Positions 1,623-52,658 of a stretch of 64,000 bases of DNA are shown in pieces. A program made the position numbers and the translations under genes. Each line of letters starts with the position of its first letter. Positions within the stretch are counted from its first letter, which is position 1. Under the pieces are notes generated by a model. That model was not told where the DNA came from. It made no database searches and worked only from the letters and a program-made list of their open reading frames with translations. The stretch comes from Sulfurimonas sp. CG01_land_8_20_14_3_00_36_23 (lineage in GTDB: Bacteria > Campylobacterota > Campylobacteria > Campylobacterales > Sulfurimonadaceae). The stretch spans positions 20,319-84,318 of the forward strand of contig PETN01000037.1 of NCBI GenBank assembly GCA_002781365.1, in the 5' to 3' direction.

Positions 1623-3365
1623 TTATATCTTTGATTGAACGGTTACCTTTCTAGCTTCAAAGAGCTCTATGGCTTTTTGAACCATAGGCTCTTCCATGAT
1701 GTCTGTACCATTTATTTCTTTTGTTGCGTCTTCACTTTCTGTGCAGTTTGTGACACAGCTTGCACTTCCACCCATCTCAGCATCTTCTATCATCGAACTG
1801 CTTTGTGCGTTGGGTATGAAGGGTTGCTCTCTTGCTTGTGGGGTTTCTTCTTGCTGCGTAGGAACTGGAATTACGTCATTTTTTTTTTCTTCAATTTCCT
1901 CTGAACAAGCAACACCTTTAATCTTTGTCTCAAAGCCAAAGAGTTCTCGAACGAGTTGTTTTATCACTGTATATCCATGTTTGAGTGCTTTTTTACACTC
2001 TTCATTGGCACAACTCTCCCATGTCAAAACATTCTCTTCGTAGGAAATAAACTTGATGTTATTTGTAAAACACTCCCCAAGCGCATAGTTTCTATCTTTA
2101 ATTTTTACTACAAGTGCTTCAAAAGTTTTGGCATGTGGATTTGGCATGTGGAAATCTTCACTAGGAAGAGTCTCCTCCTCTGCTTTGGCATGTGGAAACT
2201 CTTCAGCAGGCATAGCAGGTGCTTGCTCTTCCTCTTGTATAGGTGTTTTCTCTGGTGTTGCAGTTTGTATCTTGATGGTAGATATCTCAGGGCGCTGTAT
2301 CTCTTTTTGAAGCGACTCAATCATCTGGTCCACCTCTTTGATTCGAAGGGCTTCAACCATTTTGAAAAAGATAAGGGAGAGCACAAAGGAGCCTTCAGCA
2401 TTAATACTAAAAAGATATTTTGAGTCACTTAAGATTCTAAAAAACCTATCTAAGACTAGGGTAGAAAAGAGAGCATCTTGATTATACATTCTCTCTTTGA
2501 GATAGGCGATAAGCTCATCTACAACCATCTCCGCTTCATAATCCTCGAGTATTTTTGTGTACTCCACCAACTGTGCATAGTTTTTTGAAAATACAGCACT
2601 AAATAAATCTGCAATAAATTTAGGATCTACAAGTCCAAGCATATCTGTGACTGTTTGAACATCTACATGCCCTTTGGAGTAGATGATAGCTTGGTCTAGA
2701 AGTGTGAGTGTATCTCTAAGACTTCCACTTCCGCTTCTTGCAAGTATCTCTAGTGCAGCACTCTCATACTGTAGATTTTCAAGGTGTAAAATATGCGCCA
2801 AATGATCCACAATTTTGTTTGTTGCAATACTCTTAAATCGAAAGTGTTGCGTTCGACTTAGGATGGTTGCCGGAAGTTTAAGTGGGTCTGTTGTCGCTAA
2901 GATAAACTTCACATAAGAAGGAGGCTCTTCAAGCGTTTTTAGAAGTGCATTAAAAGCCTCTTTTGTGAGCATGTGGACTTCATCGATGATAAAGATTTTA
3001 AATCTTGCCGTGGCAGGTTTATACTTCGTTTGCTCTACCAAGTCTCTGATGTCATCTATCTTTCTTGAAGAAGCACCATCCATCTCCACAATATCCATGT
3101 GACGGTTTTGTAGTGCAAGTGTACAATTTTGACAAACACCACAAGGCTGGTGTGTCATGCCATCTTCACAGATAAGCGCTTTGGCAAATATACGCGCAGT
3201 TGAAGTTTTTCCACTCCCTCGAAGTCCTGAAAAAAGGTAGGCATGGGAGAGACGGTTGGAGTCAAGTGCAAGTGAAAGCGTTTGTGAAATAGTCTCTTGA
3301 CCGATAAGCTCATCAAAGTTAGTAGGGCGATATTTTCTTGCTAATACTTCTGACTTATCTTTCAA
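1623..3365 (-). CDS. dnaX: DNA polymerase III subunit gamma/tau
   Basis: Clamp-loader ATPase that loads the beta sliding clamp. The N-terminus (ARKYRPTNFDELIGQE) is diagnostic. Walker A GLRGSGKTS is at about 47-55, the zinc module cysteines at 67, 75, 78 and 81, and Walker B IIDEVHML near 127-133. The AAA lid follows, then an acidic, low-complexity linker from about 370 and a tau-like C-terminal part. The start is TTG at 3365-3363 with GGAGT upstream; no better ATG precedes the conserved N-terminus. The linker carries three closely spaced copies of the GGCATGTGGA repeat, read as PHAK and FHMP. At 580 residues it is within the usual range. Whether a short gamma form is made is not visible. Confidence 0.95.
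   Translation of the reverse strand: MKDKSEVLARKYRPTNFDELIGQETISQTLSLALDSNRLSHAYLFSGLRGSGKTSTARIFAKALICEDGMTHQPCGVCQNCTLALQNRHMDIVEMDGASSRKIDDIRDLVEQTKYKPATARFKIFIIDEVHMLTKEAFNALLKTLEEPPSYVKFILATTDPLKLPATILSRTQHFRFKSIATNKIVDHLAHILHLENLQYESAALEILARSGSGSLRDTLTLLDQAIIYSKGHVDVQTVTDMLGLVDPKFIADLFSAVFSKNYAQLVEYTKILEDYEAEMVVDELIAYLKERMYNQDALFSTLVLDRFFRILSDSKYLFSINAEGSFVLSLIFFKMVEALRIKEVDQMIESLQKEIQRPEISTIKIQTATPEKTPIQEEEQAPAMPAEEFPHAKAEEETLPSEDFHMPNPHAKTFEALVVKIKDRNYALGECFTNNIKFISYEENVLTWESCANEECKKALKHGYTVIKQLVRELFGFETKIKGVACSEEIEEKKNDVIPVPTQQEETPQAREQPFIPNAQSSSMIEDAEMGGSASCVTNCTESEDATKEINGTDIMEEPMVQKAIELFEARKVTVQSKI
2130..2198 (+). repeat. Cluster of GGCATGTGGAAA repeats in the dnaX linker
   Basis: Perfect copies lie at 2143-2154 and 2187-2198, and a 10-base match (GGCATGTGGA) at 2130-2139. 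dnaX reads them from the other strand as F-H-M-P (2143), F-P-H-A (2187) and P-H-A-K (2130), so two reading frames are used in one gene. The copies sit in a poorly conserved linker where insertion or drift is tolerated. Confidence 0.9.
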
Positions 3366-14068: not shown

Positions 14069-14080
14069 GGCATGTGGAAA
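14069..14080 (+). repeat. Single intergenic GGCATGTGGAAA repeat
   Basis: One perfect copy in the gap between the convergent mrp and the diguanylate cyclase. It has no inverted partner close by. Confidence 0.85.
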
Positions 14081-16047: not shown

Positions 16048-17862
16048 TTATTCTACGGTTACACTTTTTGCTAAATTTCTTGGCATATCTACATCATTTC
16101 CAAGTCTGATAGAAATTTCAAGTGAAATAAGTTGAACGACAACCATCATCTCAAAAAATTCAAGCATATAATCTCGGCATGTGGAAATCTTTATAAAATC
16201 ATCTGCTTTATTGAACTCTAGTGGACTTATCGCACATATAGTCGAGTCTCTAGCACTTAGCTCTTCCACATTACTTTTTGATTTTTCATAGAGAAGATGT
16301 TGAGGGAGCAGGGCGATTGTAAAGAGCTCAGGGTCTGCAAGTGCGATAGGACCATGTTTCATCTCACCACTTGGATACCCCTCCGCATGGAGATAAGAGA
16401 TCTCTTTTAGTTTTAATGCACCCTCAAGAGCAAGTGGGAAAAAGATGTCACGCCCTATAAAGAAAAAGCCATGTCCATGGAGGTATCTTTTGGAGAGACG
16501 TTTGATTTTTTCATGCAACTCATCTGTAACTATGAGAGAAGCTGGAACCTCTCTTAAAAGTGAAATTTGTCTGATAATCTCCTCTTTTTTAAGAGCGCCT
16601 CTTAATTTTGCAACATAGAGCGTGAGCATCCAAAAGAGAGTCACTTGTGTAGCAAAAGCTTTTGTAGAAGCTACCCCTTTTTCTATCCCTGCACGCGTAA
16701 GAATACTTGCATCGGAGAGTCTTACCATGGAAGAGTTATCCACATTACAGATAACAAGTGTTCTTAGTCCTGCTTTTTTTGCCATCTTTAAAGTTTCAAG
16801 AGTATCTGCAGTTTCGCCACTTTGGGAGATGACAACAAAAAGTGTGTCTTTTGTCATAATAGGCTCTCTATATCGAAACTCACTTGCTATTTCAACGGAA
16901 GTTTTTATCTTTGCATATCTCTCAAAGAGATAAGAAGCACTCAATGCTGCATGGTAAGAGGTTCCACATGCACAAAGTTTTATCTCATGGATGCCATCAA
17001 AGAGACTCTTATCTATCTCATCAAAAAGAATCTCCTCATCACTTAATCTTCCCATCATGGTATCCACGATAACATCACTCTGTTCATAAATCTCTTTTTC
17101 CATAAAGAAACGGTAACCATCTTTTTGAGCAGAGAGTTTGTCCGTTGAGAGTTTTGAGAAATGAGGCGCTTTTTTCTCTCCATCTTTTGAAAAAATACTA
17201 AGTTCCTCAGCACTTACAAAACCATAATCCCCATCTTCAAAATAGTTCACATCGGTGCAGTGACCGATGAGTGGTGTATCAGAAGAGGCAAAATATTTTT
17301 CACCCTCTGCATTGATTCCAACGAGCATAGGAGAGCCCTGTTTTGCAAAAAAGATAGTTTTATCTTCAGCTTTAGTCACAAGCAAGATGGCAAAAGCACC
17401 TTCTAACTCTTGTATTGTTGCTCTAAAAGCCTCAAAAGCATTATGCATTGATTTTAAATTTTTCTCAAACTGGTGGACGATGACTTCTGTATCTGTTTGG
17501 CTTAAAAATTGAACCCCGCTCTCCATAAGCTCTTTTTTTAATGTAGAGTAGTTCTCAATAATACCATTATGAACAACATAGGAGTTCTCACCTAAATGTG
17601 GGTGGGCGTTAAGTTCTGTAGGTTTTCCATGTGTTGCCCATCGTGTGTGACCGATTCCAACAGCAAAACCCTCTGTGATAAAATCTTTTGTTTTCTCTTG
17701 TAGGTTTACAAGTTTACCAATAGCTTTAAAACTCTCAAACTTATTGTTCGATAAAACAGCTATTCCTGCAGAGTCATAGCCTCTATATTCTAGCTCTTTG
17801 AGTCCATCAAGTAAAATTTCTTTTGTATTTTTTTTCCCTACATATCCAACGATTCCGCACAT
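16048..17862 (-). CDS. glmS: Glucosamine-6-phosphate synthase
   Basis: Makes glucosamine-6-phosphate from fructose-6-phosphate and glutamine for peptidoglycan and LPS. The N-terminal glutamine amidotransferase starts with the catalytic Cys (MCGIVGYVG) and has LEYRGYDSAG and GHTRWATHG. Two SIS isomerase domains follow (ACGTSYHA, SQSGETADT), and the C-terminus ends PRNLAKSVTVE. At 604 residues it is normal. No glmS ribozyme is seen in the 18-base gap to glnD, as expected outside Firmicutes. Confidence 0.97.
   Translation of the reverse strand: MCGIVGYVGKKNTKEILLDGLKELEYRGYDSAGIAVLSNNKFESFKAIGKLVNLQEKTKDFITEGFAVGIGHTRWATHGKPTELNAHPHLGENSYVVHNGIIENYSTLKKELMESGVQFLSQTDTEVIVHQFEKNLKSMHNAFEAFRATIQELEGAFAILLVTKAEDKTIFFAKQGSPMLVGINAEGEKYFASSDTPLIGHCTDVNYFEDGDYGFVSAEELSIFSKDGEKKAPHFSKLSTDKLSAQKDGYRFFMEKEIYEQSDVIVDTMMGRLSDEEILFDEIDKSLFDGIHEIKLCACGTSYHAALSASYLFERYAKIKTSVEIASEFRYREPIMTKDTLFVVISQSGETADTLETLKMAKKAGLRTLVICNVDNSSMVRLSDASILTRAGIEKGVASTKAFATQVTLFWMLTLYVAKLRGALKKEEIIRQISLLREVPASLIVTDELHEKIKRLSKRYLHGHGFFFIGRDIFFPLALEGALKLKEISYLHAEGYPSGEMKHGPIALADPELFTIALLPQHLLYEKSKSNVEELSARDSTICAISPLEFNKADDFIKISTCRDYMLEFFEMMVVVQLISLEISIRLGNDVDMPRNLAKSVTVE
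16176..16187 (+). repeat. GGCATGTGGAAA repeat within glmS
   Basis: Perfect 12-mer near the glmS 3' end; the gene reads it from the opposite strand as I-S-T-C-R, the third antisense frame used in this window. The base in front is C rather than the usual T. Confidence 0.85.
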
Positions 17863-21941: not shown

Positions 21942-23504
21942 ATGTCTTATTTAATGGCGATAGATGCAGGAACAGGAAGTATAAGAGCGGTTATTTTTGA
22001 CACCAAAGGGAATCAAATTTCGGTTGCGCAAAAAGAGTGGACACATTTAGAAGAGGCAGGAGTTGTCAACTCTATGTGTTTTGATTGTGAGAAGAACTGG
22101 CTCTTGGTATGTGAATGTATTCAAGAAGCTTTGGCATGTGGAAATATTAGAGGCGATGAGATTCTCGCTCTGAGTGCGACAAGTATGCGTGAGGGAATCG
22201 TGCTCTATGATAAAGAGGGCAAAGAGCTCTGGGCAGTTGCAAATGTGGATGCAAGAGCTTCGGCTGAGGTAAAATTTCTCAAAGAAAACTTTAGCGGTAT
22301 CGAAGAGGAGTTTTATCAACTCTCAGGTCAAACTTTTGCACTTGGCGCACTTCCAAGAATTTTATGGCTCAAAAACAATAAACCAGAACTCTATGAAAAA
22401 GTGGCAAATATCTCTATGATAGGCGACTGGATTTTAGCCAAACTCAGTGGAGTGATAGCAACAGATCCAAGTAACGGCGGAACAACAGGAATCTTCTCTT
22501 TAGAGAATCGCGATTGGCATGTGGAAATGGCAAGCAGGATTGGTATTAAAGATAACATCTTTTCCACATGCCACGAAGTTGGAACGGTTATAGGAACGGT
22601 TACGAAAGAAGCAGAGTCTCAAACAGGGCTTTCAACAAAGACAAAAGTCGTAACAGGCGGCGGTGATGTTCAGCTCGGCTCTGCAGGTCTTGGTGTAGTC
22701 GAAGTAGGACAAGTTGCAGTTTTAGGCGGTTCGTTTTGGCAACAGGTGGTTAACATCCAAAGTCAAACACCACCTCCAAAAGATATGGGAATAAGAGTCA
22801 ATCCACATGTCGTTAGTGGACTCTCTCAGGCAGAGGGAATTACCTTTTTTAGCGGTTTGATTATGCGCTGGTTTAGAGATGCTTTTTGTGAGATGGAGAA
22901 ACTTGAAGCCCAAAAACGAGGTATTGATACTTACGCCGTTTTGGAAGAGAAAGCTTCAAAAGTGCCAGTGGGTTCATACGGGATTATTCCTATCTTTTCA
23001 GACTCTATGAAGTATGGCAAGTGGTACCATGCGGCTCCAAGCTTTTTAAATCTGAGCATTGACCCAGAGGTTTGCAACCGTGCTTCGATGTTTAGAAGTC
23101 TAGAGGAGAATGCGGCGATAGTCTCTGGCATAAATCTCGATAACATCAGAGCTTTCAGCGGTATAAAAATCGATGAACTTGTCTTTGCTGGAGGTGCAAG
23201 TCGTGGCACTTTATGGTCTCAGATTTTAGCAGATGTGACAGGGTGTAGAGTGAAAATTCCAAAAGTGACAGAGGCAACGGCACTTGGTGCAGCAATGGCT
23301 GCAGGTGTTGGGGCAGGGATATATACTTCATTAGCAGATGCCGCAAAAGAGTTAGTTGTATGGGAGAGAGAGTATCTGCCAAAGAGAGAAAATTTTGAGA
23401 AGTATCAAGAGATGAAGCAGAATTGGCAGAGGGCTTACTTGGCACAGCTTAAACTAGTAGATGAAAATGTAACTATTAGCATGTGGAAAGCACCCGGTTT
23501 ATAG
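21942..23504 (+). CDS. lsrK: Autoinducer-2 kinase (LsrK-type FGGY kinase)
   Basis: Phosphorylates AI-2 (DPD) in the Lsr pathway. The resemblance to E. coli LsrK runs from start to end: LMAIDAGTGSIRAVIFD at the N-terminus, SMREGIVLYDKEG, ANVDARA, DPSNGGTTG, GGGDVQLG, MRWFRDAFC, PIFSDSMKYGKWYHAAPSF and the closing SMWKAPGL. At 520 residues it matches LsrK (about 530) rather than a generic xylulose or glycerol kinase. No Lsr transporter, LsrR or LsrF is nearby, so uptake and regulation must differ from E. coli. Three perfect copies of the 12-mer repeat and one near-copy lie inside the gene. Confidence 0.87.
   Translation: MSYLMAIDAGTGSIRAVIFDTKGNQISVAQKEWTHLEEAGVVNSMCFDCEKNWLLVCECIQEALACGNIRGDEILALSATSMREGIVLYDKEGKELWAVANVDARASAEVKFLKENFSGIEEEFYQLSGQTFALGALPRILWLKNNKPELYEKVANISMIGDWILAKLSGVIATDPSNGGTTGIFSLENRDWHVEMASRIGIKDNIFSTCHEVGTVIGTVTKEAESQTGLSTKTKVVTGGGDVQLGSAGLGVVEVGQVAVLGGSFWQQVVNIQSQTPPPKDMGIRVNPHVVSGLSQAEGITFFSGLIMRWFRDAFCEMEKLEAQKRGIDTYAVLEEKASKVPVGSYGIIPIFSDSMKYGKWYHAAPSFLNLSIDPEVCNRASMFRSLEENAAIVSGINLDNIRAFSGIKIDELVFAGGASRGTLWSQILADVTGCRVKIPKVTEATALGAAMAAGVGAGIYTSLADAAKELVVWEREYLPKRENFEKYQEMKQNWQRAYLAQLKLVDENVTISMWKAPGL
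22133..22572 (+). repeat. Three GGCATGTGGAAA repeats within lsrK
   Basis: Perfect plus-strand copies at 22133-22144 (read L-A-C-G-N) and 22516-22527 (W-H-V-E-M), and a minus-strand copy at 22561-22572 (F-S-T-C-H). The last two face each other across 33 bases. A one-mismatch copy, AGCATGTGGAAA, at 23478-23489 is read S-M-W-K. Four different translations in one gene show that the DNA sequence, not a peptide, is repeated. Confidence 0.92.
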
Positions 23505-23511
23505 ATTTAGA

Positions 23512-23517
23512 TATAAT
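23512..23517 (+). promoter_or_regulatory. Likely -10 box of mqnE
   Basis: TAGATATAAT eight bases after the lsrK stop codon and 32 before the mqnE ATG; AGGGTAAG serves as ribosome site. It suggests mqnE has its own promoter. Confidence 0.55.
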
Positions 23518-23549
23518 TCGCGACAATTTAACAATTTTTAGGGTAAGAA

Positions 23550-24611
23550 ATGAATTTAAAAACTAAGATTTTATCGGGTGAACGTGTAGATTTTGACGAG
23601 GCTCTGAGCCTTTACGATATGGATTTTTTTGAGCTTGGCGACTTGGCAGATGCAAAAAGAAAAGAGCGTCACGGTAAAAAAACATACTTCAACATCAACC
23701 GTCATATCAATCCGACAAATGTTTGTGCAGATGTATGTAAGTTCTGCGCCTACTCAGCTACAAGAAAAAATCCAAATCAGTACACGATGAGCCATGAAGA
23801 GATTATGGAAATCGTAAAAGATATAGACTCCCGTGGAGCAAAAGAGGTGCATATTGTTTCTGCACATAACCCAAATGTAACGCTGGAGTGGTACTTAGGG
23901 ATTTTTAAAAAAATCAAGCTAGCCTATCCTCATCTTCACATTAAAGCACTTACAGCCGCAGAGGTTGATTTCCTCTCGCGTCATCACTCCATCACTTATG
24001 ATGAAGTGCTTGACCTTATGGTTGAAAATGGGGTTGACTCTATGCCAGGAGGCGGTGCTGAAATCTTTGATGAAAAGGTGCGTGACTTTATATGTAAGGG
24101 GAAAGTGACATCAGAGCAGTGGATTGAGATTCATAAGAAGTGGCATGAACGCGGTAAAAAGTCAAATGTTACTATGCTTTTTGGGCATGTGGAAAGTAGG
24201 GCAAATCGTATCGACCACATGATGAGAATCCGAGCTTTACAAGATGAAACGGGTGGCTTTAACTGTTTTATTCCTCTTGTTTATCAAACTGAGAATAACT
24301 ATCTTAAAATCGAAGCACCTATTACCGCAAATGAGATTTTAAAAACGATGGCAATCAGCCGTATTGTTTTAGATAATGTTCCAAACTTGAAGGCTTACTG
24401 GGTCACTTCTACTGTAAATCTAGCCTTAGTCGCACAAGAGTTTGGCGCAAATGATTTAGATGGAACGATAGAAAAAGAGTCTATAAACTCAGCCGCAGGG
24501 GCAAAAAGTGCCAATGGTGTCAACTTAGAAGATTTTACAGCACTTATAAAAAATAGCGGTTTTGTTCCAGTGGAGCGAGATAGTATTTACAACGAAATCA
24601 AAGTCTGGTAA
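23550..24611 (+). CDS. mqnE: Aminofutalosine synthase (menaquinone, futalosine pathway)
   Basis: Radical-SAM enzyme that joins SAM to 3-[(1-carboxyvinyl)oxy]benzoate to form aminofutalosine. The Cx3Cx2C cluster motif CADVCKFC lies at about residues 58-65 after NRHINPTNV. GGGAEIF and the KALTAAEVDFLSR stretch fit MqnE better than its paralogue MqnC. At 353 residues it is the usual size. Campylobacterota use this pathway for their only quinone, so the gene is expected to be essential. Confidence 0.9.
   Translation: MNLKTKILSGERVDFDEALSLYDMDFFELGDLADAKRKERHGKKTYFNINRHINPTNVCADVCKFCAYSATRKNPNQYTMSHEEIMEIVKDIDSRGAKEVHIVSAHNPNVTLEWYLGIFKKIKLAYPHLHIKALTAAEVDFLSRHHSITYDEVLDLMVENGVDSMPGGGAEIFDEKVRDFICKGKVTSEQWIEIHKKWHERGKKSNVTMLFGHVESRANRIDHMMRIRALQDETGGFNCFIPLVYQTENNYLKIEAPITANEILKTMAISRIVLDNVPNLKAYWVTSTVNLALVAQEFGANDLDGTIEKESINSAAGAKSANGVNLEDFTALIKNSGFVPVERDSIYNEIKVW
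24184..24195 (+). repeat. GGCATGTGGAAA repeat within mqnE
   Basis: Perfect copy read G-H-V-E-S; preceded by G rather than T. Confidence 0.85.
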
Positions 24612-24618
24612 AGAGGGC

Positions 24619-25428
24619 ATGGATATAACGGTTGTCATTCCAACCTACAACCGTTATGAAGTGCTACAACGCGCTGTAAAGTCTGTTTATGCTCAATCCC
24701 ACATGCCTCGTGAGGTCATTATAATTGATGATGGCTCTACAGATAACACTTCACAAATTCAAAACCTTTTTCCACATGCCACTTATATTTACCAAAAAAA
24801 TGGAGGTGTCTCCTCTGCTAGAAATTTGGGGATACAACATGCTTCATGCCAATGGATTGCCTTTTTAGATTCGGATGATGTTTGGCATGTGGAAAAATTA
24901 GCACGTCAGGTGGAGTTTCACAAAAAGAACCCAGAGGTAGCTATGAGTTATACGGATGAGAGATGGGTAAGAGAGGGTGTAGAAGTGAAGATGCCTCAAA
25001 AGTTTCACAAAGTTGGTGGAGAGATTTTTGATGCCTCTCTATCTCACTGTATTATCGCCCCCTCTGCAGCTTTAATCCATAGAAAACTCTTAGACGAAGT
25101 AGGGCTTTTTGATGAGAGTTTAGAGGTGTGTGAAGATTATGATTTGTGGCTTCGTGTGGCATGTGGAAATAAAATAGGTCTCGTCCATGAAAAACTTATA
25201 ACGAAGTATGGCGGGGATGTGGATCAGTTAAGTATGAAGTATTGGGGAATGGATAGATTTCGGGTGCGAGCACTGGAAAAACTAGTAGATTCAAACAAGC
25301 GAGAGCGTGTAATTCAAACACTTCTTCAAAAATATGCGCTACTTCTAAAGGGTGCAATAAAGTATGCTAAAATAGCGGAGATTAAAGAGTATGAAGGAAA
25401 GATACAATATTATGAACAGCTTAACTAA
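24619..25428 (+). CDS. Family 2 glycosyltransferase
   Basis: GT-A-fold glycosyltransferase: ITVVIPTYNRYEVLQRAVKSV at the N-terminus, IIIDDGSTDNT, and the metal/nucleotide-sugar site FLDSDDVW. I chose the ATG at 24619 because AGAGGG precedes it and the family's hydrophobic first strand follows at once; a longer frame from 24562 would overlap mqnE. Length is 269 residues. Its 3' end overlaps the start of pglB by 17 bases, which suggests it builds or modifies the lipid-linked glycan used by PglB. Sugar donor unknown. Confidence 0.85.
   Translation: MDITVVIPTYNRYEVLQRAVKSVYAQSHMPREVIIIDDGSTDNTSQIQNLFPHATYIYQKNGGVSSARNLGIQHASCQWIAFLDSDDVWHVEKLARQVEFHKKNPEVAMSYTDERWVREGVEVKMPQKFHKVGGEIFDASLSHCIIAPSAALIHRKLLDEVGLFDESLEVCEDYDLWLRVACGNKIGLVHEKLITKYGGDVDQLSMKYWGMDRFRVRALEKLVDSNKRERVIQTLLQKYALLLKGAIKYAKIAEIKEYEGKIQYYEQLN
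24769..25169 (+). repeat. Three GGCATGTGGAAA repeats within the glycosyltransferase gene
   Basis: Minus-strand copy at 24769-24780 (read F-P-H-A), plus-strand copies at 24884-24895 (W-H-V-E-K) and 25158-25169 (V-A-C-G-N). A shorter 9-base core match lies at 24699-24707. With lsrK and mqnE this makes seven perfect copies in 3.1 kb, the densest stretch of the window. Confidence 0.9.
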
Positions 25429-29992: not shown

Positions 29993-31171
29993 TTAGACGA
30001 TGATATGTCCTACAAATTTACTCATGTTATCCATTATCTCTGAGCCTTTTCTAAAACTCATTCCACATGCCTCATAGGCAAAGAAAACACCAGCTTGGTA
30101 TTTTGCTCCATTGATATCTTTTGGAAACTCTACATACTCCTGATAAACCTTTTTATAGTTGCCATAAGGTCCATCCATCTCCTCTAGTAGTGTGCCATTA
30201 GCATCGATAATCTTAGTATTTGCACCTTCTCTGCCAAAAACAGTTTTTTCGACTTGTTTGATGCCTTGAAGTGGCTCAAAAGAGGTTTGAAGTAGATAGG
30301 GTGAATCAGGAAAAAGGTCACATAAGATTTTCATCATTCCTTTAGATTGAAAAAGGAGTGTATAGGCAGGGTTGATGATGATAGCCTTTTGGTTGTTCAT
30401 AATATTCGTAAGCGTTGTTGCAAGCTCTGGTTCATCATGGGCTATATCCTCCCAAGGATAGAGTTTAAACCAATACTCATAACTATTATCATGAGCATCA
30501 GAGATTCCGTTCTCATCAAACTGTACATTACTAAGATACTCAAAACCAGTATTAAAACCTGCATCAGTTGCCATCTGTTGAAGAAGTCTTGTCGTTGCCT
30601 CCTCTTCATCATTCTCATCTACACAGGAGAACAGAATTTTCCAGCCATCGTATCTCTCATTAAAAAGTTCTGTATCATCAAAAAGCGTAATTACTCTTTT
30701 AAAGTTTTCACTTATCGCTTCATAAACATTATTGAACTGTTTCTCTTCATCCATACCGTTATGTTTTAAAAGTGCCCATTGAAGAAGGGCAGTTTCGAAG
30801 AGACTAGTTGGTGTATCTGCATTAAACTCTATAAGTTTAATTGGTTTTTTATCTATGCCACCTGCTAAATCAAAACGACCATAAAGGTGCCAGTGTACAT
30901 CATTTTCCCAACTTTTTTTGATTGCATCTACAAGGTTAAAAGGGATTCCCAGTTCAAAAAAGAGCTCATTATTAATGACATGCTCAGCAGCTTGAACATA
31001 CATATCATAGATAGTATTTACAGCTTCATAGTAATCTTCTGCTTCTTGTGCAGAGATTTCAACTAAGGCATCGTTTACATATTTAGTTGTATCACTATCC
31101 GTATGCCAAGTGAAGCCAAGCTCTTCTAGCGTGGCATCGTCAAGTGGGTTTATATTTTGTAGTGTTACCAT
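29993..31171 (-). CDS. Glutathionylspermidine-synthase-like ATP-grasp protein (YgiC-type)
   Basis: A 392-residue protein of the GSP-synthetase ATP-grasp family: WHLYGRFDL, KLIEFNADTPTSLFE near 115-130, the ATP-grasp core with INPAYTLLFQSKGMM, and the C-terminal FFAYEACGMSFRKG. It lacks the amidase domain of E. coli Gss and matches the stand-alone YgiC/YjfC group, whose substrate is not established. It lies 2 bases behind a YgiB-like lipoprotein gene, the same pairing as ygiB-ygiC in E. coli, so they probably act together. A near-copy of the repeat is at 30060-30071. Confidence 0.85.
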   Translation of the reverse strand: MVTLQNINPLDDATLEELGFTWHTDSDTTKYVNDALVEISAQEAEDYYEAVNTIYDMYVQAAEHVINNELFFELGIPFNLVDAIKKSWENDVHWHLYGRFDLAGGIDKKPIKLIEFNADTPTSLFETALLQWALLKHNGMDEEKQFNNVYEAISENFKRVITLFDDTELFNERYDGWKILFSCVDENDEEEATTRLLQQMATDAGFNTGFEYLSNVQFDENGISDAHDNSYEYWFKLYPWEDIAHDEPELATTLTNIMNNQKAIIINPAYTLLFQSKGMMKILCDLFPDSPYLLQTSFEPLQGIKQVEKTVFGREGANTKIIDANGTLLEEMDGPYGNYKKVYQEYVEFPKDINGAKYQAGVFFAYEACGMSFRKGSEIMDNMSKFVGHIIV

Positions 31172-32183: not shown

Positions 32184-32611
32184 CGCACCCTCCTCATTCT
32201 TTTTTTGTTGCATTGAATCAGAGTTGAAGAACTTCTTTCCTGCAACCCATTTCTGTCTTCTACTATTATATCTGCTTTATTCTCACAAAAACCTCTCTCA
32301 AATTTTTTACTTGCTTCATTTGCAGAAGTTGAGAAGTTCCATTTTGAGTTTTTTAGTATAGTGGAGTTAAGTGAATTGTTGGCAACTCTAAAAGCTCTAT
32401 TTTTTACTATGAATGTTGTTTTTTTACTGCGGCGAACTAAATTTTTTCTATTTTGGGGAATTCTATTTCCACATGCCAATAAATCTTTGAAGCTTGCATA
32501 GACTTTGATAAAGGGCTTGGATGCTGGGCGTGATTTTATTTGGGAAAGTTTGTCTGAATTTTGAGAGATAAAACCGACAGTAGTGTCGGTTTGCAGGAGG
32601 ATGACAGGCAC
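32180..32611 (-). CDS. Short Sua5/YrdC/YciO-like protein
   Basis: Begins VILLQTDTTVGFISQ, the YrdC/Sua5 nucleotide-binding opening (normally LPTDTVYGL), followed by KSRPASKPFIKVY, which corresponds to the KxR..KP motif. The remaining residues are poorly conserved and the protein is about 143 residues, shorter than threonylcarbamoyl-AMP synthases. I place the start at the GTG at 32611, three bases past the carB stop; a frame from an ATG at 32653 would overlap carB. A gene of this type follows carB in Campylobacter too (Cj0280, from memory). It may be a diverged YrdC with partial function. Confidence 0.6.
   Translation of the reverse strand: MPVILLQTDTTVGFISQNSDKLSQIKSRPASKPFIKVYASFKDLLACGNRIPQNRKNLVRRSKKTTFIVKNRAFRVANNSLNSTILKNSKWNFSTSANEASKKFERGFCENKADIIVEDRNGLQERSSSTLIQCNKKRMRRVR
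32466..32477 (-). repeat. GGCATGTGGAAA repeat in the YrdC-like gene
   Basis: Perfect copy on the coding strand, read L-L-A-C-G-N. Confidence 0.85.
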
Positions 32612-32613: not shown

Positions 32614-35600
32614 TTACGCTAGGAAATCTTGAAGTGCGGATACATCGGACCATGAGCTGTTACCCATCTCATCAAGAGCTAAAATAGTTGCTCGTGCTGC
32701 ACTGAGTGTCGTAAAATAAGGTATGTTCTTTCTCAGTACTTCTTGACGTATAACGATAGCATCTTTTTTAGAGGTATTGTTATCTGAAGTGTTGATTGCC
32801 ATGTGGATTTCATTGTTCTTCATATTGTCCTCTATATTTGGACGACCTTCAGAGATTTTAAGAACGCGCTCACATGGAATACCATAATTCTCTATGATTG
32901 CTTGCGTACCTTTTGTCGCAACAAGCTTAAAGCCATGTCTATGAAGACCTTGTGCAATCTCAATCGCATGTACTTTATCACTATCAACAAAAGATAAGAA
33001 ACATGTTCCACCAGTAGGGATTTTATTGCCTGCTGAGAGTTGTGCTTTTGCAAAAGAGATTCCGAAGTTAGAACTAATACCCATAACTTCACCTGTGGAC
33101 TTCATCTCAGGTCCAAGCACTAAGTCCGCACCATAGAGTTTATGGAAAGGAAACACAGCCTCTTTGACAGAAACATGGTTTTTGAGGTGTGGTTTTAAAA
33201 GTCCATTCTCCTCTGTGACAATATTATAGTTATCATAGTATTTTAAGGCACTTCTTAAACTCTCTCCTACCATAACACGAGTAGCAACTTTTGCCAAAGG
33301 CATACCAGTAGCCTTAGATACAAAAGGAACAGTACGAGAAGCACGAGGATTTACCTCTATAAGATAAATCTCATTTTGAAAAATAGCGTATTGAACATTC
33401 ATAAGTCCAACAACACCAAGACCAAGTGCAATCGTTTTCGTTTGTTGCTCTATGTTCTCAATCATCTCTTTTGATAAATTTACAGGAGGAAGTGAACATG
33501 CACTATCTCCCGAGTGGATTCCAGCCTCTTCGATATGTTGCATAACAGAACCGATATAGACATCCTTTCCATCACAGATAGCATCCACATCAAGCTCTAT
33601 TGCTTGGTCTAAAAACTTGTCAATTAAAACAGGTGCTTCATTTGAAACGGAGATTGCAAGTGCCATATATTGTGCTAACTCTTCTTGGCTATAAACGATT
33701 TTCATCCCACGACCACCTAGAACAAAAGAGGGACGTACAAGAACAGGGAAACCTAATCTCTCCGCAATTGCAGGTGCTTCCTCTTTTGTACGCGCAAGAC
33801 CATTTGCGGGTTGTTTGAGTCCATGTGCAGTTACAAAATTAGAAAAGAGTTCTCTATCTTCTGCAAGGTCAATCACAGCCGAAGGTGTTCCTGCAATCTT
33901 TGCACCTATTTTTGTAAGTGAATCTGCAAGTTTAAGCGGAGTCTGCCCACCAAAGTGAACGATGATACCATCTGGTTGCTCATTTTCTATAACTTCTCTC
34001 ACATGCTCAAAGTCGATAGGTTCAAAATAGAGTACATCCGAAGTGTCATAATCCGTAGAAACAGTTTCAGGGTTACAGTTGTACATAATACACTCAATAT
34101 CCATCTCTTTAAGTGCAAAAGCTGCATGAACACAACAGTAGTCAAACTCTATACCTTGCCCGATTCTGTTTGGTCCACCACCAAGAATAAGAACTTTTTT
34201 CTTATCACTTACACGATTCTTTACGTTAGGGAGTTTGGTGATATTTGTTGTTGAGTAGAGATAGGGAGTCAGTGCTTCAAACTCAGCAGAACAAGTATCT
34301 ACTTCATTGTATTCTAAGCTAATGCCAAGTGATTTTCTTGCACTATAAACTTCATTTTCACTTACTTTATGATTTGAATTTTTAGTGATAAGTTGCGCGA
34401 TTTTTTTATCTGAAAACCCATCTACTTTTACACTTCTCATAAAATTTTCATCGTGTAAGATTTTATCTGTAATGGTACTTTCCATTTGAATTAACTCTTC
34501 GATTTGGTATAAAAACCAAGGGTCGATTTGGCATGTGGAAAATAGTTCTTCAACGCTCATACCACGACGGAAACCTTCTGCAACATAGAGCATTCTATCA
34601 GCATTTGGACGACGAATTTCATGCTTCACAAATTCAGTGTCCGCATCTATCTCATCAAAACCACAAAGTCCAGTCTCTAATGAACAGAGTGCTTTTTGCA
34701 TAGACTCTTTAAAAGTACGACCTATTGCCATAACTTCACCCACTGACTTCATACTTGTACTCAAAGTATTTTCAGCTTCAGGGAATTTCTCAAATGTAAA
34801 ACGAGGTATTTTAGTGACGACATAATCGATTACAGGCTCAAAAGAGGCAGGTGTTCCAGTAATGTCATTTGTGATTTCATCAAGGGTAAAACCAACGGCT
34901 AAAAGAGTTGCAACTTTGGCAATAGGATACCCTGTTGCTTTACTTGCAAGTGCAGAGGAGCGAGAAACACGAGGATTCATCTCGATTACAATCATACGCC
35001 CTGTTTTAGGGTCGATAGAGAACTGTACATTACTTCCGCCTGTATCTACACCGATTTCTCTTAAGATTGCAAAAGAGGCATTTCGCATTCTTTGATACTC
35101 TTTATCCGTTAAAGTAAGCGCTGGAGCAACAGTAATACTGTCTCCTGTATGCACACCCATCGGGTCAAAATTTTCAATCGCACAGACGATGATACAGTTA
35201 TCAGCTTTGTCACGGATAACTTCCATCTCATACTCTTTCCAGCCTAAAAGTGACTCTTCTATGAGGATTTCAGTGACTGGAGATTCATCCAAACCGCGTG
35301 CTGCAAGTTTTTTAAATTCATCCATATTATAAGCAACACCAGAACCACCACCTGCAAGTGTAAATGAGGCTCTAATGATAATAGGAAAACCGATTGCATT
35401 TGCTGCTGCAAGTGCATCTTCCATGTTGTAAGCATATTTTGAGAATGGTAAATCCATACCAATTTTTATCATTGCATCTTTGAATGCTAATCTGTCTTCA
35501 CCTTTATGTATTGCTTCTGGAGATGCACCTAAAAATTCTATTCCTTCAAGCATCCCTTTCTCATACATACTTGTAGCAACATTAAGTGCAGTCTGTCCGC

Positions 35601-39749: not shown

Positions 39750-40537
39750 ACATTTTTCCTCTCATATGGAATCCCACGTTTTGTTTTGAGTATAAAGTTA
39801 CAAAGGTTTTGAACATGATGATTCTGAGTTTTTTCAAGGAGTTCATTTGCCACATCTTTAAGTGGTTTCCCAGATTCAAAAAGTTCTTTATAGGCATGTT
39901 TAAGCTCATCTATCTCCTCTCTTTTGAGGTTTCGTCTTAAGCCTGTTAAGTTAAGTCCGCGAAGATATGCACGATTTCCCTCAGCCATGCAGTATGGTGG
40001 TACATCTTGCGCGAGTGCAGAAGCACCTGCTATCATTGCATAATCACCGATATGCACAAACTGGTGGATAGGTGTCATGCCGCCAATAACAGCATAATCT
40101 CCCATTTCCACATGCCCAGCTAAAGTTGCAGCATTTGCAAGGATACAGTGGTTTCCGATGAGAACATCATGACCGATATGCACATAACCCATAAAAAGAT
40201 TGTGTGAACCAATAATAGTCTTTCCACCGCCACCTTTTGTACCAGGGTTAAAGAGTGTAAACTCTCTTATTTTATTGTTGTCACCTATGATAAGTTCAAC
40301 ATCTTCACCCGCAAATTTCAGATCTTGAGGAACTGAACCGATTACGGCATGTGAAAATATATGGTTGTTTTTACCAATGGTTGTTTTCCCATAGATGGAT
40401 GTGTTTTGGTCGATGACCGTTCCATCCCCTATAGTCGTTTGTGAAGAGATTAAGCAATAAGGACCTATCTCTACATTTTTTCCAATAATGGCGCCCTTTT
40501 CTATAATAGCTAAAGGGGAAATTTTACTATTTGGCAT
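39746..40537 (-). CDS. lpxA: UDP-N-acetylglucosamine acyltransferase
   Basis: First step of lipid A synthesis. Left-handed beta-helix hexapeptide repeats from residue 1 to about 185 ([23 protein letters not shown]), catalytic His in [10 protein letters not shown], then the helical C-terminal domain. I prefer the ATG at 40537 ([14 protein letters not shown] upstream) over a GTG four codons earlier. Directly behind fabZ, with clpX coupled downstream. Confidence 0.95.
40105..40116 (-). repeat. GGCATGTGGAAA repeat within lpxA
   Basis: Perfect copy on the coding strand, read G-H-V-E-M within a beta-helix turn. Confidence 0.85.
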
Positions 40538-41088: not shown

Positions 41089-42171
41089 TTAGATTATGAT
41101 TATTTTCTCTTTTGTGTCTTCATAAGTTTTTGCATCGAGGTGGATTGTTAGTTTGGCATCGCTCAAAGTCTCCATGACAATGAGAGGAGTTAAATCGTAA
41201 TTTCCACATGCCAAAGATGCTCTTATCTTTAACTCCTCTTCAAAGTTTGGAGGGTTGTAAATAAGCTCATTAAGATTTTTGTAGAGTTTTCCACATGCCA
41301 AGTTAAAAGTCTCAAGCGTGATAAATTTTATCTCTTCACGGTTAAAGTAGTGAATATTTGAAGCTTCAAACTCTATACGTCCTTGCGCCTGTTTTCTTGG
41401 GAGCGTGGAGTAGGAGAGGGCATAGGCAGGAATCGTTTTATTTTTCCCCTCAGTGACTTTAAAGCTGAGTTGACGGTAGTTTAAAAACTTCTGTTTTATT
41501 ATCTTATAGGCTATATTTTTATCTTCTAGCTCCATGCGATATTTGTACATCTCTAGCCTCTCCTCAATGGAAGCGGGTAAGATTTTGCCAGAGAGAGGCG
41601 AGAACATCTCATCCATCACTCTGTGTTGCTGCTCTCTTTGCATCGTCAGACCAAAAATACATCCGCAGTAGTCCTGACGGTAGAGCTGTTGCTCTTTTGT
41701 GACGCGGCTTTGGTCTTGTGTTCCGCCACCTGAGCGATAATCGACGGCTATAAATTCAAGCCCATGCTTTTTGTGAAAAGTATCTCCAGCTTTTTTTAAC
41801 TGCTCTTGAGATTTGAGTGGGCTAACGAGGAGGGTTGTTGTCATCTTGGTCTCACCTAGTTCAAGGGCTTTATGGGCACTTACATCAAAGCGTTTGTCAA
41901 AACAGACTTCACATCTTGCACCTTTTTCTGGCTCTTTTTCTAACCCTTTGACAGCCTGCATCCAAGCCTCAAAATCGTATTCGCCTTCAAGTAAATCTAT
42001 ACCTAGTTTTTTACAACTTCTTTGCACATCAAGATAGCGGAGTTGGTACTCTGAATAGGGGTGAATATTGGGGTCATAAAAAAAACCAGTAAGTTTTTCT
42101 TGGGGATAATCGTGTTGGAGTTTTTCTAAAAAAAAGTGCGAATCAACGCTACAACAGATATGTACTAAGAT
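41089..42171 (-). CDS. queH: Epoxyqueuosine reductase QueH, apparently starting at ATC
   Basis: Last step of queuosine tRNA modification, the non-orthologous replacement for QueG (DUF208). The Cys pairs that hold the Fe-S cluster are present: HICCS near the N-terminus, RCEVCF, and YCGC. Conserved TGFFYDPNIHPYSEY lies upstream of the first usual start (GTG at 42027), so the gene must begin earlier. The frame is closed by TAA a few codons before ATC at 42171-42169, with TAAGGA at the right distance. From there the protein reads I/M-LVHICCSVDS, exactly where homologues start with Met. So ATC appears to be the start codon, giving 360 residues. A long C-terminal domain of unknown role carries two repeat copies. 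Confidence 0.85.
   Translation of the reverse strand: MLVHICCSVDSHFFLEKLQHDYPQEKLTGFFYDPNIHPYSEYQLRYLDVQRSCKKLGIDLLEGEYDFEAWMQAVKGLEKEPEKGARCEVCFDKRFDVSAHKALELGETKMTTTLLVSPLKSQEQLKKAGDTFHKKHGLEFIAVDYRSGGGTQDQSRVTKEQQLYRQDYCGCIFGLTMQREQQHRVMDEMFSPLSGKILPASIEERLEMYKYRMELEDKNIAYKIIKQKFLNYRQLSFKVTEGKNKTIPAYALSYSTLPRKQAQGRIEFEASNIHYFNREEIKFITLETFNLACGKLYKNLNELIYNPPNFEEELKIRASLACGNYDLTPLIVMETLSDAKLTIHLDAKTYEDTKEKIIII
41201..41299 (-). repeat. Two GGCATGTGGAAA repeats in the queH 3' part
   Basis: Perfect copies at 41201-41212 and 41288-41299, same orientation, both on the coding strand and read L-A-C-G-N and L-A-C-G-K. Confidence 0.88.
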
Positions 42172-42186: not shown

Positions 42187-42226
42187 TTTCCACATGCCAA
42201 GAGTCTCTCTTCTTGGCATGTGCAAA
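42187..42226. repeat. Inverted pair of the 12-mer repeat between cyclophilin gene and queH
   Basis: A perfect minus-strand copy (42187-42198) faces a one-mismatch plus-strand copy, GGCATGTGCAAA (42215-42226). The arms CACATGCCAAGA and TCTTGGCATGTG pair fully around a short purine/pyrimidine loop, so a hairpin of 12 bp or more forms just after the cyclophilin stop codon and 16 bases before the queH start. It probably ends or attenuates transcription into queH. Confidence 0.85.
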
Positions 42227-42232
42227 GAGCGC

Positions 42233-42736
42233 TTATTTCTCTTCTAAAATCTCAATGCTCTTGATAGCATCTTGACCTTTGATGCTATCTAAAACATCAA
42301 AACTCTCTTTGTCATCGAGCTCAATCGCACCAAAAACTGTGTGAACGCCATCTAAGTGAGGCGTGTCAGCAAAACAGATGAAAAATTGACTTCCACCTGT
42401 ATTTGGTCCAGCGTGAGCCATAGAGAGTGTCCCACGACGATGACGAGAAGAGTTAAGTGCAGTTTCACATGGGATAGACCAATCAGGACCGCCTGTTCCA
42501 GTTCCGTGCGGACAACCACCTTGTGCCATAAAACCTGGAATTACACGATGAAAACTTAAATCATTGTAAAAACCTGTATTTGCTAAGTGTGCAAAGTTTG
42601 CAACTGTATTTGGAGTTTCATCACCAAAAAGTTTAATCCAAATAACACCTTTTGCAGTGGTTACTTTAGCCCATTTGAATTTTGCTATCTCTTCTGTAGT
42701 TATGTCGTATGTTTTTAATTTGTTTCTTCCAAACAT
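42233..42736 (-). CDS. Peptidyl-prolyl cis-trans isomerase, cyclophilin type
   Basis: A 167-residue cyclophilin without signal peptide, so cytoplasmic (PpiB-like). Motifs FHRVIPGFMAQGGCPHGTGTGG and AHAGPNTGGSQFFI contain the active-site Arg, Gln and Phe. It catalyses proline isomerisation during folding. Stands alone, followed by the repeat hairpin. Confidence 0.93.
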   Translation of the reverse strand: MFGRNKLKTYDITTEEIAKFKWAKVTTAKGVIWIKLFGDETPNTVANFAHLANTGFYNDLSFHRVIPGFMAQGGCPHGTGTGGPDWSIPCETALNSSRHRRGTLSMAHAGPNTGGSQFFICFADTPHLDGVHTVFGAIELDDKESFDVLDSIKGQDAIKSIEILEEK

Positions 42737-42846
42737 TGCTATTCCTTTGTAATAATTCTGAAATTATAGTAACTTATTCTTAAGGAAGTTTTTGAAACTT
42801 TACCCATTAATAAAAGCTAAACAATTAAAATGATATTGTTCACAAA

Positions 42847-44091
42847 ATGAAAAGTATCACATCACGCATCGAATCTTATTTGTTACGACGGCTAAGACCC
42901 ATGACGATAAACAAAGCAAATATATTCACAACTCTGTTTGTTCTTATATTTACTGTTATCTTCGCTTATCTACTCATTCAAGAAAATTATCATGATTATG
43001 AGAGAACGCTTATTTCTCAACAAAAAGTGCATGAGAGTAAAGAGACAAGTGATAAATATTATGCAGAGACGCAAAAAAAGTTAAATACTCTTTTGATTAA
43101 AAATACGATTGCTATCTCTACGCTGGCATTTATTCTCTTCTCCATTATGCTCGCTCTATATAAAATCTTTTATACCCTTATTCAAAGAGATATCCAAACA
43201 TTTTTAGATTTTTTCAAAGGCAATGCTTATCACGAAAGTGTCTTAAATCCACATGCCATATTTTTTAAAGAGTTTAAAGTAATGGTAGGGCATGCAAATG
43301 AGATGGTTGAAACGATTAACATGCAAAAAAGAACGCTTGAAGAGATGAATCTAGGACTCGAAGATAGGATAAAAGCAAAAACTTCCGACTTGATTTTAAT
43401 CAATAAAAACTTAGAAAAAGAGAAGACTTTTTCACAGGATTTACTCAACTCTCAAAAGGAGTTTTTAAAATATACGGTGCATGAAACAAACACTCCTCTG
43501 AGTGTTATCCTCACAAGTATTGAACTCTATGTGATGCAAAATAAAAAAGATAGACAGCTCTCAAAGATAGAGGCTGCCGCAAAAAATATCTTTAATATTT
43601 ATGATGATTTGAGTTACTTGGTAAAAAAAGATCAGGTAGTTTATCCTAAAATGGCTATCAACCTTGGGGAGTTTTTAACTTCTAGACTCGACTTTTTCTC
43701 TGAAGTCGCAGAGTTGTCCAAAATACGTTTTGATGCCATTGCACTCACAGAAAACCTTTATATATATTTCAACGAGACTAAGCTCCAGAGAATCATCGAC
43801 AATACAATTACAAACGCTATAAAATATACTCTGCCCAATGAAAATGTGACAATTACACTCACTCAAGAGGGAGCTTTTGTCGATATGTCCGCATCAAGCA
43901 GATCCAAAGAGATAAAAGATACAAACAAGATTTTTGAGGCATATTATAGGGAAGAAGAACATATAGAGGGTTTTGGAATTGGTCTGAGACTGGTCCGAAC
44001 AATCTGTGATGAAGAGGGTGTGAAAATCTCTCTTGATTCAAATAACGAAGAGACAACATTTAAGTATAGATTTCAAATGATGGGTGAATGA
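42847..44091 (+). CDS. Sensor histidine kinase
   Basis: 414 residues: two membrane helices (IFTTLFVLIFTVIFAYLLI; AISTLAFILFSIMLALYKIF) around a short periplasmic loop of about 45 residues, a coiled-coil linker (about 165-200), and a dimerisation domain whose His lies in VHETNTPLSVI. The ATPase domain has N box DNTITNAIKYT and G2 GFGIGLRLV, but the G1 motif is degenerate (DMSASSRSKE instead of DxGxG), so ATP binding may be weak or altered. Its stop overlaps the response regulator start, so the two form a pair. The small sensor loop suggests a membrane or quinone-linked signal; no ligand can be named. Confidence 0.87.
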   Translation: MKSITSRIESYLLRRLRPMTINKANIFTTLFVLIFTVIFAYLLIQENYHDYERTLISQQKVHESKETSDKYYAETQKKLNTLLIKNTIAISTLAFILFSIMLALYKIFYTLIQRDIQTFLDFFKGNAYHESVLNPHAIFFKEFKVMVGHANEMVETINMQKRTLEEMNLGLEDRIKAKTSDLILINKNLEKEKTFSQDLLNSQKEFLKYTVHETNTPLSVILTSIELYVMQNKKDRQLSKIEAAAKNIFNIYDDLSYLVKKDQVVYPKMAINLGEFLTSRLDFFSEVAELSKIRFDAIALTENLYIYFNETKLQRIIDNTITNAIKYTLPNENVTITLTQEGAFVDMSASSRSKEIKDTNKIFEAYYREEEHIEGFGIGLRLVRTICDEEGVKISLDSNNEETTFKYRFQMMGE

Positions 44092-44747
44092 TGAAAATAT
44101 TATTGTTAGAAGATGAGATAATGCTCAATGAATCCATTCAAGAGTACTTAGAAGCTAAAGGGCATAGAGTGGATGCTTTTTTTGATGGAATCAAAGCTTT
44201 AGAATCTATCCAAAAAAATGCGTATGATTTATTAATCCTTGACATCAATGTTCCAAATATGGATGGTTTGACATTTTTAGAACATATCCATGCACTTAAA
44301 ATTCATGCTCCTGCCATCTATATTAGTGCTTTGGTTGATATTGAAGATATATCTCGTGCCTATAACCTTGGCTGTTTTGATTATCTCAAAAAACCATTTC
44401 ACCTCAAAGAGTTATCTCTTCGACTCGATAGAATTATTCTCTCAAATGAAGTGCCAAGAGTGCACTTAAGAGTATCAAAAAACTACAGTTATGACCAAGA
44501 ACATAGTACTCTTTTGTTCAATGGAGTGACGCAGGTGCTTACAAAAAGACAGTCGCAAATAATAGATATTCTTTCAAGAAACCGCGGAAGAGTTGTTGAC
44601 TTTGAGCAGTTTAGAATCTATGTCTGGGATGAACAAATCGTAGACAATGCAACAATCCGAGCAGAGATAAGCAGACTCAAAAAGTTTTTAAAAGAGGATG
44701 TTATCATTAACGTTCGCGGCATGGGGTATATGATAGATAAACCATAA
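44088..44747 (+). CDS. OmpR-family response regulator
   Basis: Receiver domain with acidic pair (LLLEDEIML), phospho-acceptor Asp in LLILDINVP, and Lys in YLKKPFHLKE. A winged-helix DNA-binding domain (about 130-215) follows, ending NVRGMGYMI. The second ATG at 44091 is an equally good start. Partner of the kinase in front. OmpR-type regulators often bind direct repeats about 10-11 bp apart, the kind found ahead of dctP and actP, but nothing in the window proves a link. Confidence 0.92.
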   Translation: MMKILLLEDEIMLNESIQEYLEAKGHRVDAFFDGIKALESIQKNAYDLLILDINVPNMDGLTFLEHIHALKIHAPAIYISALVDIEDISRAYNLGCFDYLKKPFHLKELSLRLDRIILSNEVPRVHLRVSKNYSYDQEHSTLLFNGVTQVLTKRQSQIIDILSRNRGRVVDFEQFRIYVWDEQIVDNATIRAEISRLKKFLKEDVIINVRGMGYMIDKP

Positions 44748-44791
44748 ACCCTCGCGTATAGTTACTAGATTCAGTTTGTACCGTTTTTTAA

Positions 44792-44843
44792 AAAGTTTAT
44801 CACAGTTTTTTTCTTTTTTTGAAATATAGTGGGGATAAACTTT
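44792..44843. other. 10-bp inverted repeat behind the two-component pair
   Basis: AAAGTTTATC at 44792-44801 pairs with GATAAACTTT at 44834-44843 across a pyrimidine-rich 32-base spacer. The first arm is followed by a T-run. It may be a terminator for the regulator gene. The 266-base gap to the methyltransferase otherwise shows no gene. Confidence 0.4.
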
Positions 44844-44976
44844 CAGAGTAATATCAAAATTTTTATGACTCAATATAGACGATACCCAACATAGGGTCAA
44901 TTTGGTTGTTAAGTATCATAGTGCCTACTTTAACTACGCCGTTGACAATCTAGTAAACATATCATAAACTTTTAGA

Positions 44977-44982
44977 TATAAT
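44977..44982 (+). promoter_or_regulatory. Likely -10 box of the restriction-modification operon
   Basis: TTTTAGATATAAT, strong -10 for this phylum, 32-56 bases ahead of the candidate Mod starts. A TTGACA at 44942-44947 is too far upstream to be its -35. Confidence 0.5.
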
Positions 44983-45037
44983 TGAACAAAAAAGTAAGGG
45001 TGGGAATTCTATTTTGTTAAACTTAGAGAGTCACAAT

Positions 45038-46849: not shown

Positions 46850-46857
46850 GAGATAAC

Positions 46858-48150: not shown

Positions 48151-48662
48151 AAATAGGTTTAATTGTAGAAGGAGATAGTGATAAACTTTTTTTTGAAAAA
48201 TATTTTAAACTTAACTTTAAAAAAAATATCATCGTTGTAAGTCCTGGGAAAAAAGGGACTTGTAGGATTTTAAATAAACAAAATATTCATAAAGACGTTC
48301 AAGGACTTTTAAAAAGAGGATGTGAAAAAGTTTATATTTTAGTTGATTTGGATACACAATGCGATAACAATCGGCAATTCGATTGTATTTTAGAACTTAA
48401 AGAGTGGTATAAAGAAAAAATACAAATTCAAAAACTAGAAAATACTTTGGTAGCAATAGTTGCAAAAGAGATAGAATCTTGGATGTTGTCTGCATGGGAA
48501 AACAGTGATAATAAATCAAAAGAAGATTTTAAGAAGAAATTTAATGAAAAAAAGAAATTAACAGAAGAAGATTTAGTTAAAAAATTCTTATCATCAAAAA
48601 AAGATATTCAAAAAGAAAACAATAAATCTTTAAAATACTTTTTAGAAAAGCTTGGAATATAA
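48147..48662 (+). CDS. TOPRIM-like protein paired with the ATPase
   Basis: 171 residues with a TOPRIM pattern: the glutamate in LIVEGDSDKLFFEKY at the N-terminus and the DxD in VYILVDLDTQ near residue 72. A later KEIESWMLSAW is shared with DUF4276/RloB-like proteins, from memory. Lys-rich C-terminus. It is coupled to the ATPase by an ATGA overlap and its stop codon abuts the Res ATG with no gap. Likely a nuclease or nucleotide-acting effector controlled by the ATPase; the exact family needs a profile search. Confidence 0.68.
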   Translation: MKIGLIVEGDSDKLFFEKYFKLNFKKNIIVVSPGKKGTCRILNKQNIHKDVQGLLKRGCEKVYILVDLDTQCDNNRQFDCILELKEWYKEKIQIQKLENTLVAIVAKEIESWMLSAWENSDNKSKEDFKKKFNEKKKLTEEDLVKKFLSSKKDIQKENNKSLKYFLEKLGI

Positions 48663-52643: not shown

Positions 52644-52658
52644 TACAAAGGATATTAT

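Follow-up and report, generated by a model that had tools for sequence, protein, structure and literature searches.

A frame-indifferent 11-letter word in a Sulfurimonas-type genome is a probable DNA uptake sequence

The 64,000-nucleotide window analysed here (Sulfurimonas sp. CG01_land_8_20_14_3_00_36_23, contig PETN01000037.1, positions 20,319 to 84,318) contains a set of genes that, as an earlier note on this stretch had said, are unrelated to one another (clamp loader, SIS/glutamine amidotransferase (GATase), FGGY kinase, radical SAM, glycosyltransferase, carbamoyl-phosphate synthase (CPSase), hexapeptide acyltransferase and QueH), and that share perfect copies of one 11-letter word, TTCCACATGCC (reverse complement GGCATGTGGAA), for which we propose a role in DNA uptake. 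In the window, 22 perfect copies were counted (TTCCACATGCC 10, GGCATGTGGAA 12); 16 are coding and 6 intergenic, and those at 14069, 30061, 41289, 42188, 56868, 56883, 61322 and 61339 were missing from the earlier note. The peptides that it listed stand for the most part, the copy at 25158 being VACGN and not LACGN, and its coordinates are right for the minus-strand copies and one base too low for the plus-strand ones. The features are as follows.

2143-2153, minus strand: perfect copy, FHMP, dnaX-like gene (DnaX-type clamp loader)
2187-2197, minus strand: perfect copy, FPHA, dnaX-like gene
14069-14079, minus strand: perfect copy, intergenic
16176-16186, minus strand: perfect copy, STC, SIS/GATase gene
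22133-22143, minus strand: perfect copy, LACGN, FGGY kinase; peptide in 0 of 28 homologues spanning the site
22516-22526, minus strand: perfect copy, WHVEM, FGGY kinase; peptide in 0 of 29 homologues (WHVAM in the related genome G036)
22562-22572, plus strand: perfect copy, FSTCH (STCHE), FGGY kinase; peptide in 0 of 29 homologues
23478-23488, minus strand: one-mismatch word AGCATGTGGAA, SMWK, FGGY kinase; conserved ancestral peptide, not a copy of the repeat
24184-24194, minus strand: perfect copy, GHVES, radical SAM gene
24770-24780, plus strand: perfect copy, FPHAT, glycosyltransferase
24884-24894, minus strand: perfect copy, WHVEK, glycosyltransferase
25158-25168, minus strand: perfect copy, VACGN, glycosyltransferase
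30061-30071, plus strand: perfect copy, EACGM, coding
32467-32477, plus strand: perfect copy, LACGN, Sua5/YrdC-type gene
34530-34540, minus strand: perfect copy, FSTCQ, carbamoyl-phosphate synthase large chain (CarB)
40106-40116, plus strand: perfect copy, GHVEM, hexapeptide acyltransferase gene
41202-41212, plus strand: perfect copy, LACGN, queH-like gene
41289-41299, plus strand: perfect copy, LACGK, queH-like gene
42188-42198, plus strand: perfect copy, intergenic
42199-56867: longest word-free stretch of the window, 14.7 kb, including a type III restriction-modification cassette at 45014-51224
56868-56893: inverted pair of two perfect copies (56868, 56883), 28 bases past the stop of gene 55176-56840; hairpin -21.1 kcal/mol (z -5.2)
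61322-61349: inverted pair of two perfect copies (61322, 61339), 13 bases past the stop of gene 59345-61309; hairpin -21.8 kcal/mol (z -7.9)

The genome that holds the window (G000; 2.43 Mb in 102 contigs, Campylobacterota) contains 734 perfect copies by whole-genome count, or about 300 exact copies per Mb, and none of the reversed control word. The two strands are used about equally (380/354), without strand bias. In a 411-kb sample of G000, on which the frame, flank and Markov statistics are based, 131 copies stand against 0.1 expected under a third-order Markov model. Copies with a single mismatch show that the word is free to vary at its two ends only: the change falls on the first T in 26 and on the last C in 22, and on the nine inner bases together in 9, compared with 3 in all for the control. 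The core is TCCACATGC and the extended form atTTCCACATGCCAAa, with a weak 'at' before the word and 'AAa' after it; this bias reaches 2-3 nt on each side and then ceases. Sequence shared among copies ends at about 16 bp.

The earlier note had claimed that the repeat is read in five or six frames. In the window, the 16 coding copies span five (FHMP, FPHA, STC, W/GHVE and L/V/EACG), and in the 411 kb all six are occupied, the 102 coding copies being distributed as FPHA 32, LACG 26, HVE 15, STC 13, FHMP 10 and GMW 6. The one-mismatch word at 23478, put forward for the sixth frame, is rejected as a copy of the repeat, as SMWKAPGL is the usual kinase C-terminus in nearly all of 29 homologues, themselves without the motif; that frame does occur in other places, in the six perfect copies that read GMWx.

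We compared these 102 coding copies, located in 72 genes, with 1.87 Mb of sequence from genus mates without the TTCCACATGCC dialect, a set that included G036, the bearer of a related dialect. Counterparts of G000 proteins in genus mates are 70-93% identical. Across 60 sites and 333 comparisons with these dialect-negative genomes, residues under the word showed 41% identity, against 72% for the whole alignments, with the value under the word being the lower of the two at 45 of the 60 sites (Wilcoxon p = 4e-7). At the orthologous place, the DNA word was present in 0 of 329 comparisons. Among same-dialect relatives, identity was 80% under the word and 77% overall, and 18 of 30 comparisons showed the word at the orthologous place. 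In the FGGY kinase, all three perfect copies occupy positions variable among homologues, and at these sites there are no indels relative to the word-free ones. The same alignment column as the CarB copy at 34530 has the word in three same-dialect relatives and near-words in others, and substitutions in TTTGAYACATGYCAGAT-like DNA, with no indels, appear to have produced the CarB word. Alignment with word-free homologues thus gave what the earlier note had predicted, namely a repeat at variable positions that is absent there from the homologues. With six frames in use, peptides at variable places and the word swapped in relatives, its central claim, that selection acts on the DNA, is supported, with the addition that the force at the DNA rather than the peptide level may be selection or drive.

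The word is fourfold enriched outside genes: 29 of the 131 copies (22%) lie outside mechanically called open reading frames (ORFs), which leave 5% of the sequence uncovered (p = 1e-11). Where neighbouring copies lie within 60 nt of each other, 8 of 12 are arranged as GGCATGTGGAA..TTCCACATGCC, and each of the window's two inverted pairs gives a 13-bp hairpin of roughly -21 kcal/mol.

Of 36 genus mates, G036 carries 33 perfect copies of the word and the others 0-7 each. When 84,980 species were scanned for the inverted pair, at least seven more genomes turned up that carry 318-946 copies, along with at least two that carry 77-104; among the matches listed, the same-word genomes, several of them metagenome-assembled (MAGs), bear the titles Sulfurimonas sp., Sulfuricurvum sp., Helicobacteraceae or Campylobacterales, and a few unrelated genomes have the inverted pair once each with 2-9 copies of the word, which is chance level. 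Samples of the genus mates' genomes yielded other words instead. CTACATGTAG is dominant in G032, G006 and G004, TTACATGTAA in G011, AAACGCAGC in G014 and G016, and CTCACGCAG in G007; AAACGCAG and CTCACGCA were also found, three genomes have 723-769 copies of CTACATGTA and 18-34 of its reversed control, and WGATGCA is weak in G001, G015, G018 and G025. In samples of other genus mates, no dominant word was detected. These dialect words, too, are spread over several frames, and, aligned by eye, they may share a core A-Y-G-Y. The mixed set of G036, TTCCACATGCTA/CCACATGTAA, is apparently transitional; written as TTCCACATGC(C/T) plus CCACATGTAA, it lies between the TTCCACATGCC and CTACATGTAG dialects. 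On a CarB tree, which reflects one gene and not the species tree, most same-dialect genomes group together and dialects are also scattered, so the words appear to turn over quickly. Two sisters nested in the same-dialect clade, G071 and G072, carry 104 and 77 copies, figures that depend on assembly completeness and possibly indicate a decaying word set; G071 is also the sole genome without a comEC match. As side observations, G016 has a second over-represented word, ACATGAGC, beside AAACGCAGC, and G011 has further over-represented 10-mers (ACTGAAGTAC, AGTCGGCACT and ACCGATTCCG), which look as if they belonged to another dispersed repeat family.

The distribution traits that are cleanly testable, namely abundance, non-polarity, non-coding excess, inverted pairs, point-mutation origin and dialects, match those of the uptake sequences of Pasteurellaceae and Neisseriaceae; for a core common to the dialects and for depletion in new DNA, the match is no more than suggestive. 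TTCCACATGCC behaves like a DNA uptake sequence (DUS) or uptake signal sequence (USS), and we regard it as a putative member of this functional class: probably, it is the uptake sequence of a Sulfurimonas-type bacterium, spread by biased natural transformation. We infer an uptake bias, a receptor and competence of the organism. In this model, a minor pilin of a cts/type IV pilus-type machine would bind double-stranded DNA that bears the word in preference to other DNA, and such fragments would pass the secretin, then ComEC, and recombine at homologous chromosomal sites. Because fragments with the word would be over-sampled, any point mutation creating it would spread, and words would pile up wherever protein or intergenic space permits, whatever the frame or strand. 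A shift in receptor specificity would slowly be followed by the whole genome, giving rise to dialects in related species. The inverted pairs 3' of genes may in addition have been adopted as terminator-like hairpins, as their predicted folds suggest.

Comparison with known systems brings out likenesses and differences. Like the Neisseriaceae DUS, whose dialects form the GCCGTCTGAA family recognised by the receptor ComP (PMC3630211), TTCCACATGCC is a word of roughly ten letters, present in hundreds of copies (hundreds to thousands for DUS) both within and between genes, with inverted pairs and with dialects in related species; unlike them, it is an unrelated word from another phylum, with fewer copies, a core that looks to the eye like A-Y-G-Y and not CTG, and no ComP-like protein recognised. 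Pasteurellaceae USS, of Hin- and Apl-type, evolve by point mutation and are rarer in constrained coding sequence and in new DNA (PMC7811141); they show no orientation bias, and about 10% of them occur as inverted repeats (PMC1939737). TTCCACATGCC resembles them in its point-mutation origin at tolerant sites, its use of both strands and its core with weak flanks, and a shortage in newly acquired DNA would be a further likeness, here suggestive only; it differs in being an unrelated word with short flanks, whose information content extends some 3 bases beyond the core. With Campylobacter jejuni it shares the phylum and an apparently homologous cts/ComEC machinery, and, if the uptake reading is right, the same exclusion of foreign DNA; there, however, DNA is marked by methylation of a short common site, whereas here the mark is a long sequence word, within which no RAATTY occurs.

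The genome encodes components that such a route would employ. In G000, comEC lies at C1:67237-68514, and genes for a secretin, an AAA ATPase, two unassigned products, a T2SSE ATPase and GspF follow in series at C6:11609-18375. This operon appears cts-like, its gene order being close to ctsD-P-X-E of C. jejuni, where we take the gene after ctsE to be ctsF. The C. jejuni genes ctsD, ctsP, ctsX and ctsE correspond to cj1474c to cj1471c (PMC8308473). The receptor proposed for Pasteurellaceae USS is PpdA/ComN (PMC12616744), and G000 has ten prepilin-like ORFs. Two prepilin genes stand beside priA, at C1:59402-60478, a few kb from comEC. The pair has a similar layout in G036, G007 and G014, its C-terminal parts being variable (four genomes being too few to judge co-change), and it is a candidate place for an uptake receptor.

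Several observations weigh against an uptake role. The comEC gene is found in 36 of the 37 genomes tested, those with no detected word included, so neither the presence of a word nor its identity can be told from the competence genes. None of the scanned prepilin-like ORFs scored above the curated ComP or PpdA cut-off. The word-bearing G006 and G007 lack the type II secretion system (T2SS)-type cluster on contig C44, to which four of the pilins belong, so these pilins cannot be the general receptor, and the cluster is rejected as the receptor source. The dialect word CTACATGTAG is palindromic, a rare trait for uptake sequences. Finally, C. jejuni, the relative that has been studied, discriminates self-DNA by methylated RAATTY (PMC10046745).

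The best surviving alternative is a binding site of an intracellular protein that organises, repairs or segregates the chromosome, akin to FtsK-orienting polar sequences (KOPS), Chi, matS, SlmA/Noc-type sites or architecture-imparting sequences (AIMS). In its favour are the hundreds of roughly dispersed copies of TTCCACATGCC in one genome and the fixed core with degenerate edges. However, Chi, KOPS and AIMS need an orientation bias relative to GC skew, and the orientation of TTCCACATGCC is independent of it and of the leading or lagging strand (61/61 and 14/12; Fisher p = 0.83), so that a polar motif of this kind is rejected; moreover, the word is near-absent from close genus mates that would be expected to share chromosome biology and that carry other words instead. 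As an intracellular role predicts polarity or conservation among close relatives and neither is seen, we disfavour it and leave it a small chance of being correct.

We grant a slimmer chance to an element kept by a methyltransferase or mismatch-repair process in the manner of the highly iterated palindrome HIP1. HIP1 of cyanobacteria is a perfect octamer palindrome that is very abundant genome-wide, also within genes. TTCCACATGCC is a similarly abundant short word inside genes, and the related dialect CTACATGTAG is, like HIP1, palindromic with hundreds of copies. TTCCACATGCC itself, however, is neither palindromic nor self-complementary, is favoured in inverted pairs outside genes, and, at 11 bp with preferred flanks, is longer than methylase sites usually are. 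That the copies are relics of a mobile element, similar to repetitive extragenic palindromes (REP) or miniature inverted-repeat transposable elements (MITE), or of terminators spread by copying, is very unlikely. The strong hairpins formed by inverted pairs behind genes would fit such an origin, but most copies are single and within genes, and the kinase and CarB sites lack indels relative to word-free homologues; a homology of no more than about 16 bp led us to reject a mobile element. A conserved peptide motif or codon-usage artefact, at which the predominance of the FPHA and LACG frames might hint, can be dismissed, as the earlier note had held for the peptide motif, given six frames on two strands, the intergenic enrichment and peptides that are unconserved in homologues (60 sites; 29 homologues for the kinase).

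In the open-access literature, preprints excluded, we found no report of an uptake sequence in Sulfurimonas or Campylobacterota, and TTCCACATGCC is unlike the known DUS or USS words. A 2020 study names Pasteurellaceae and Neisseriaceae alone as showing strong word preference in uptake (PMC7811141). Taking the dialects together, we lean towards an independently evolved uptake-sequence system in Campylobacterota, a phylum in which the discrimination known to date is methylation-based. In such a system, a genus-wide radiation of unrelated-looking words (TTCCACATGCC, TTCCACATGCTA, CTACATGTAG, AAACGCAGC, CTCACGCAG and possibly WGATGCA), maybe with a common A-Y-G-Y core, would sexually isolate close species by word. 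If the uptake reading is true, this would be a third, independent case of uptake words, in apparently free-living sulfur bacteria with rapid word turnover, next to two known families, Pasteurellaceae and Neisseriaceae, that are mainly animal-associated. It would then offer a test of whether molecular drive alone makes uptake words, of whether they require a mucosal lifestyle, and of the way in which a receptor changes along with hundreds of sites in the genome. As a practical handle, the word could be added to DNA for transforming these hard-to-engineer bacteria.

Five 5-kb bins under 32% GC hold no copies of the word, base composition being a confounder, and the 14.7-kb word-free stretch of the window has P = 0.07 taken alone. 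The cassette within that stretch is AT-rich (30% GC), encodes a DNA methylase, an AAA ATPase, a DUF4276 protein and a type III restriction subunit, and looks recently acquired. The empty AT-rich bins are compatible with depletion in foreign DNA, which is suggestive only, as composition alone could contribute. At the other extreme, the earlier note had pointed to seven perfect copies clustered within 3.1 kb. The count is right and the span is 3.04 kb (22.1-25.2 kb), an arrangement with P = 0.006 for 22 copies placed randomly in 64 kb; however, because a cluster of at least seven arises somewhere in a genome of G000's size in 66 of 300 simulations, or about a fifth, we attach no special meaning to it.

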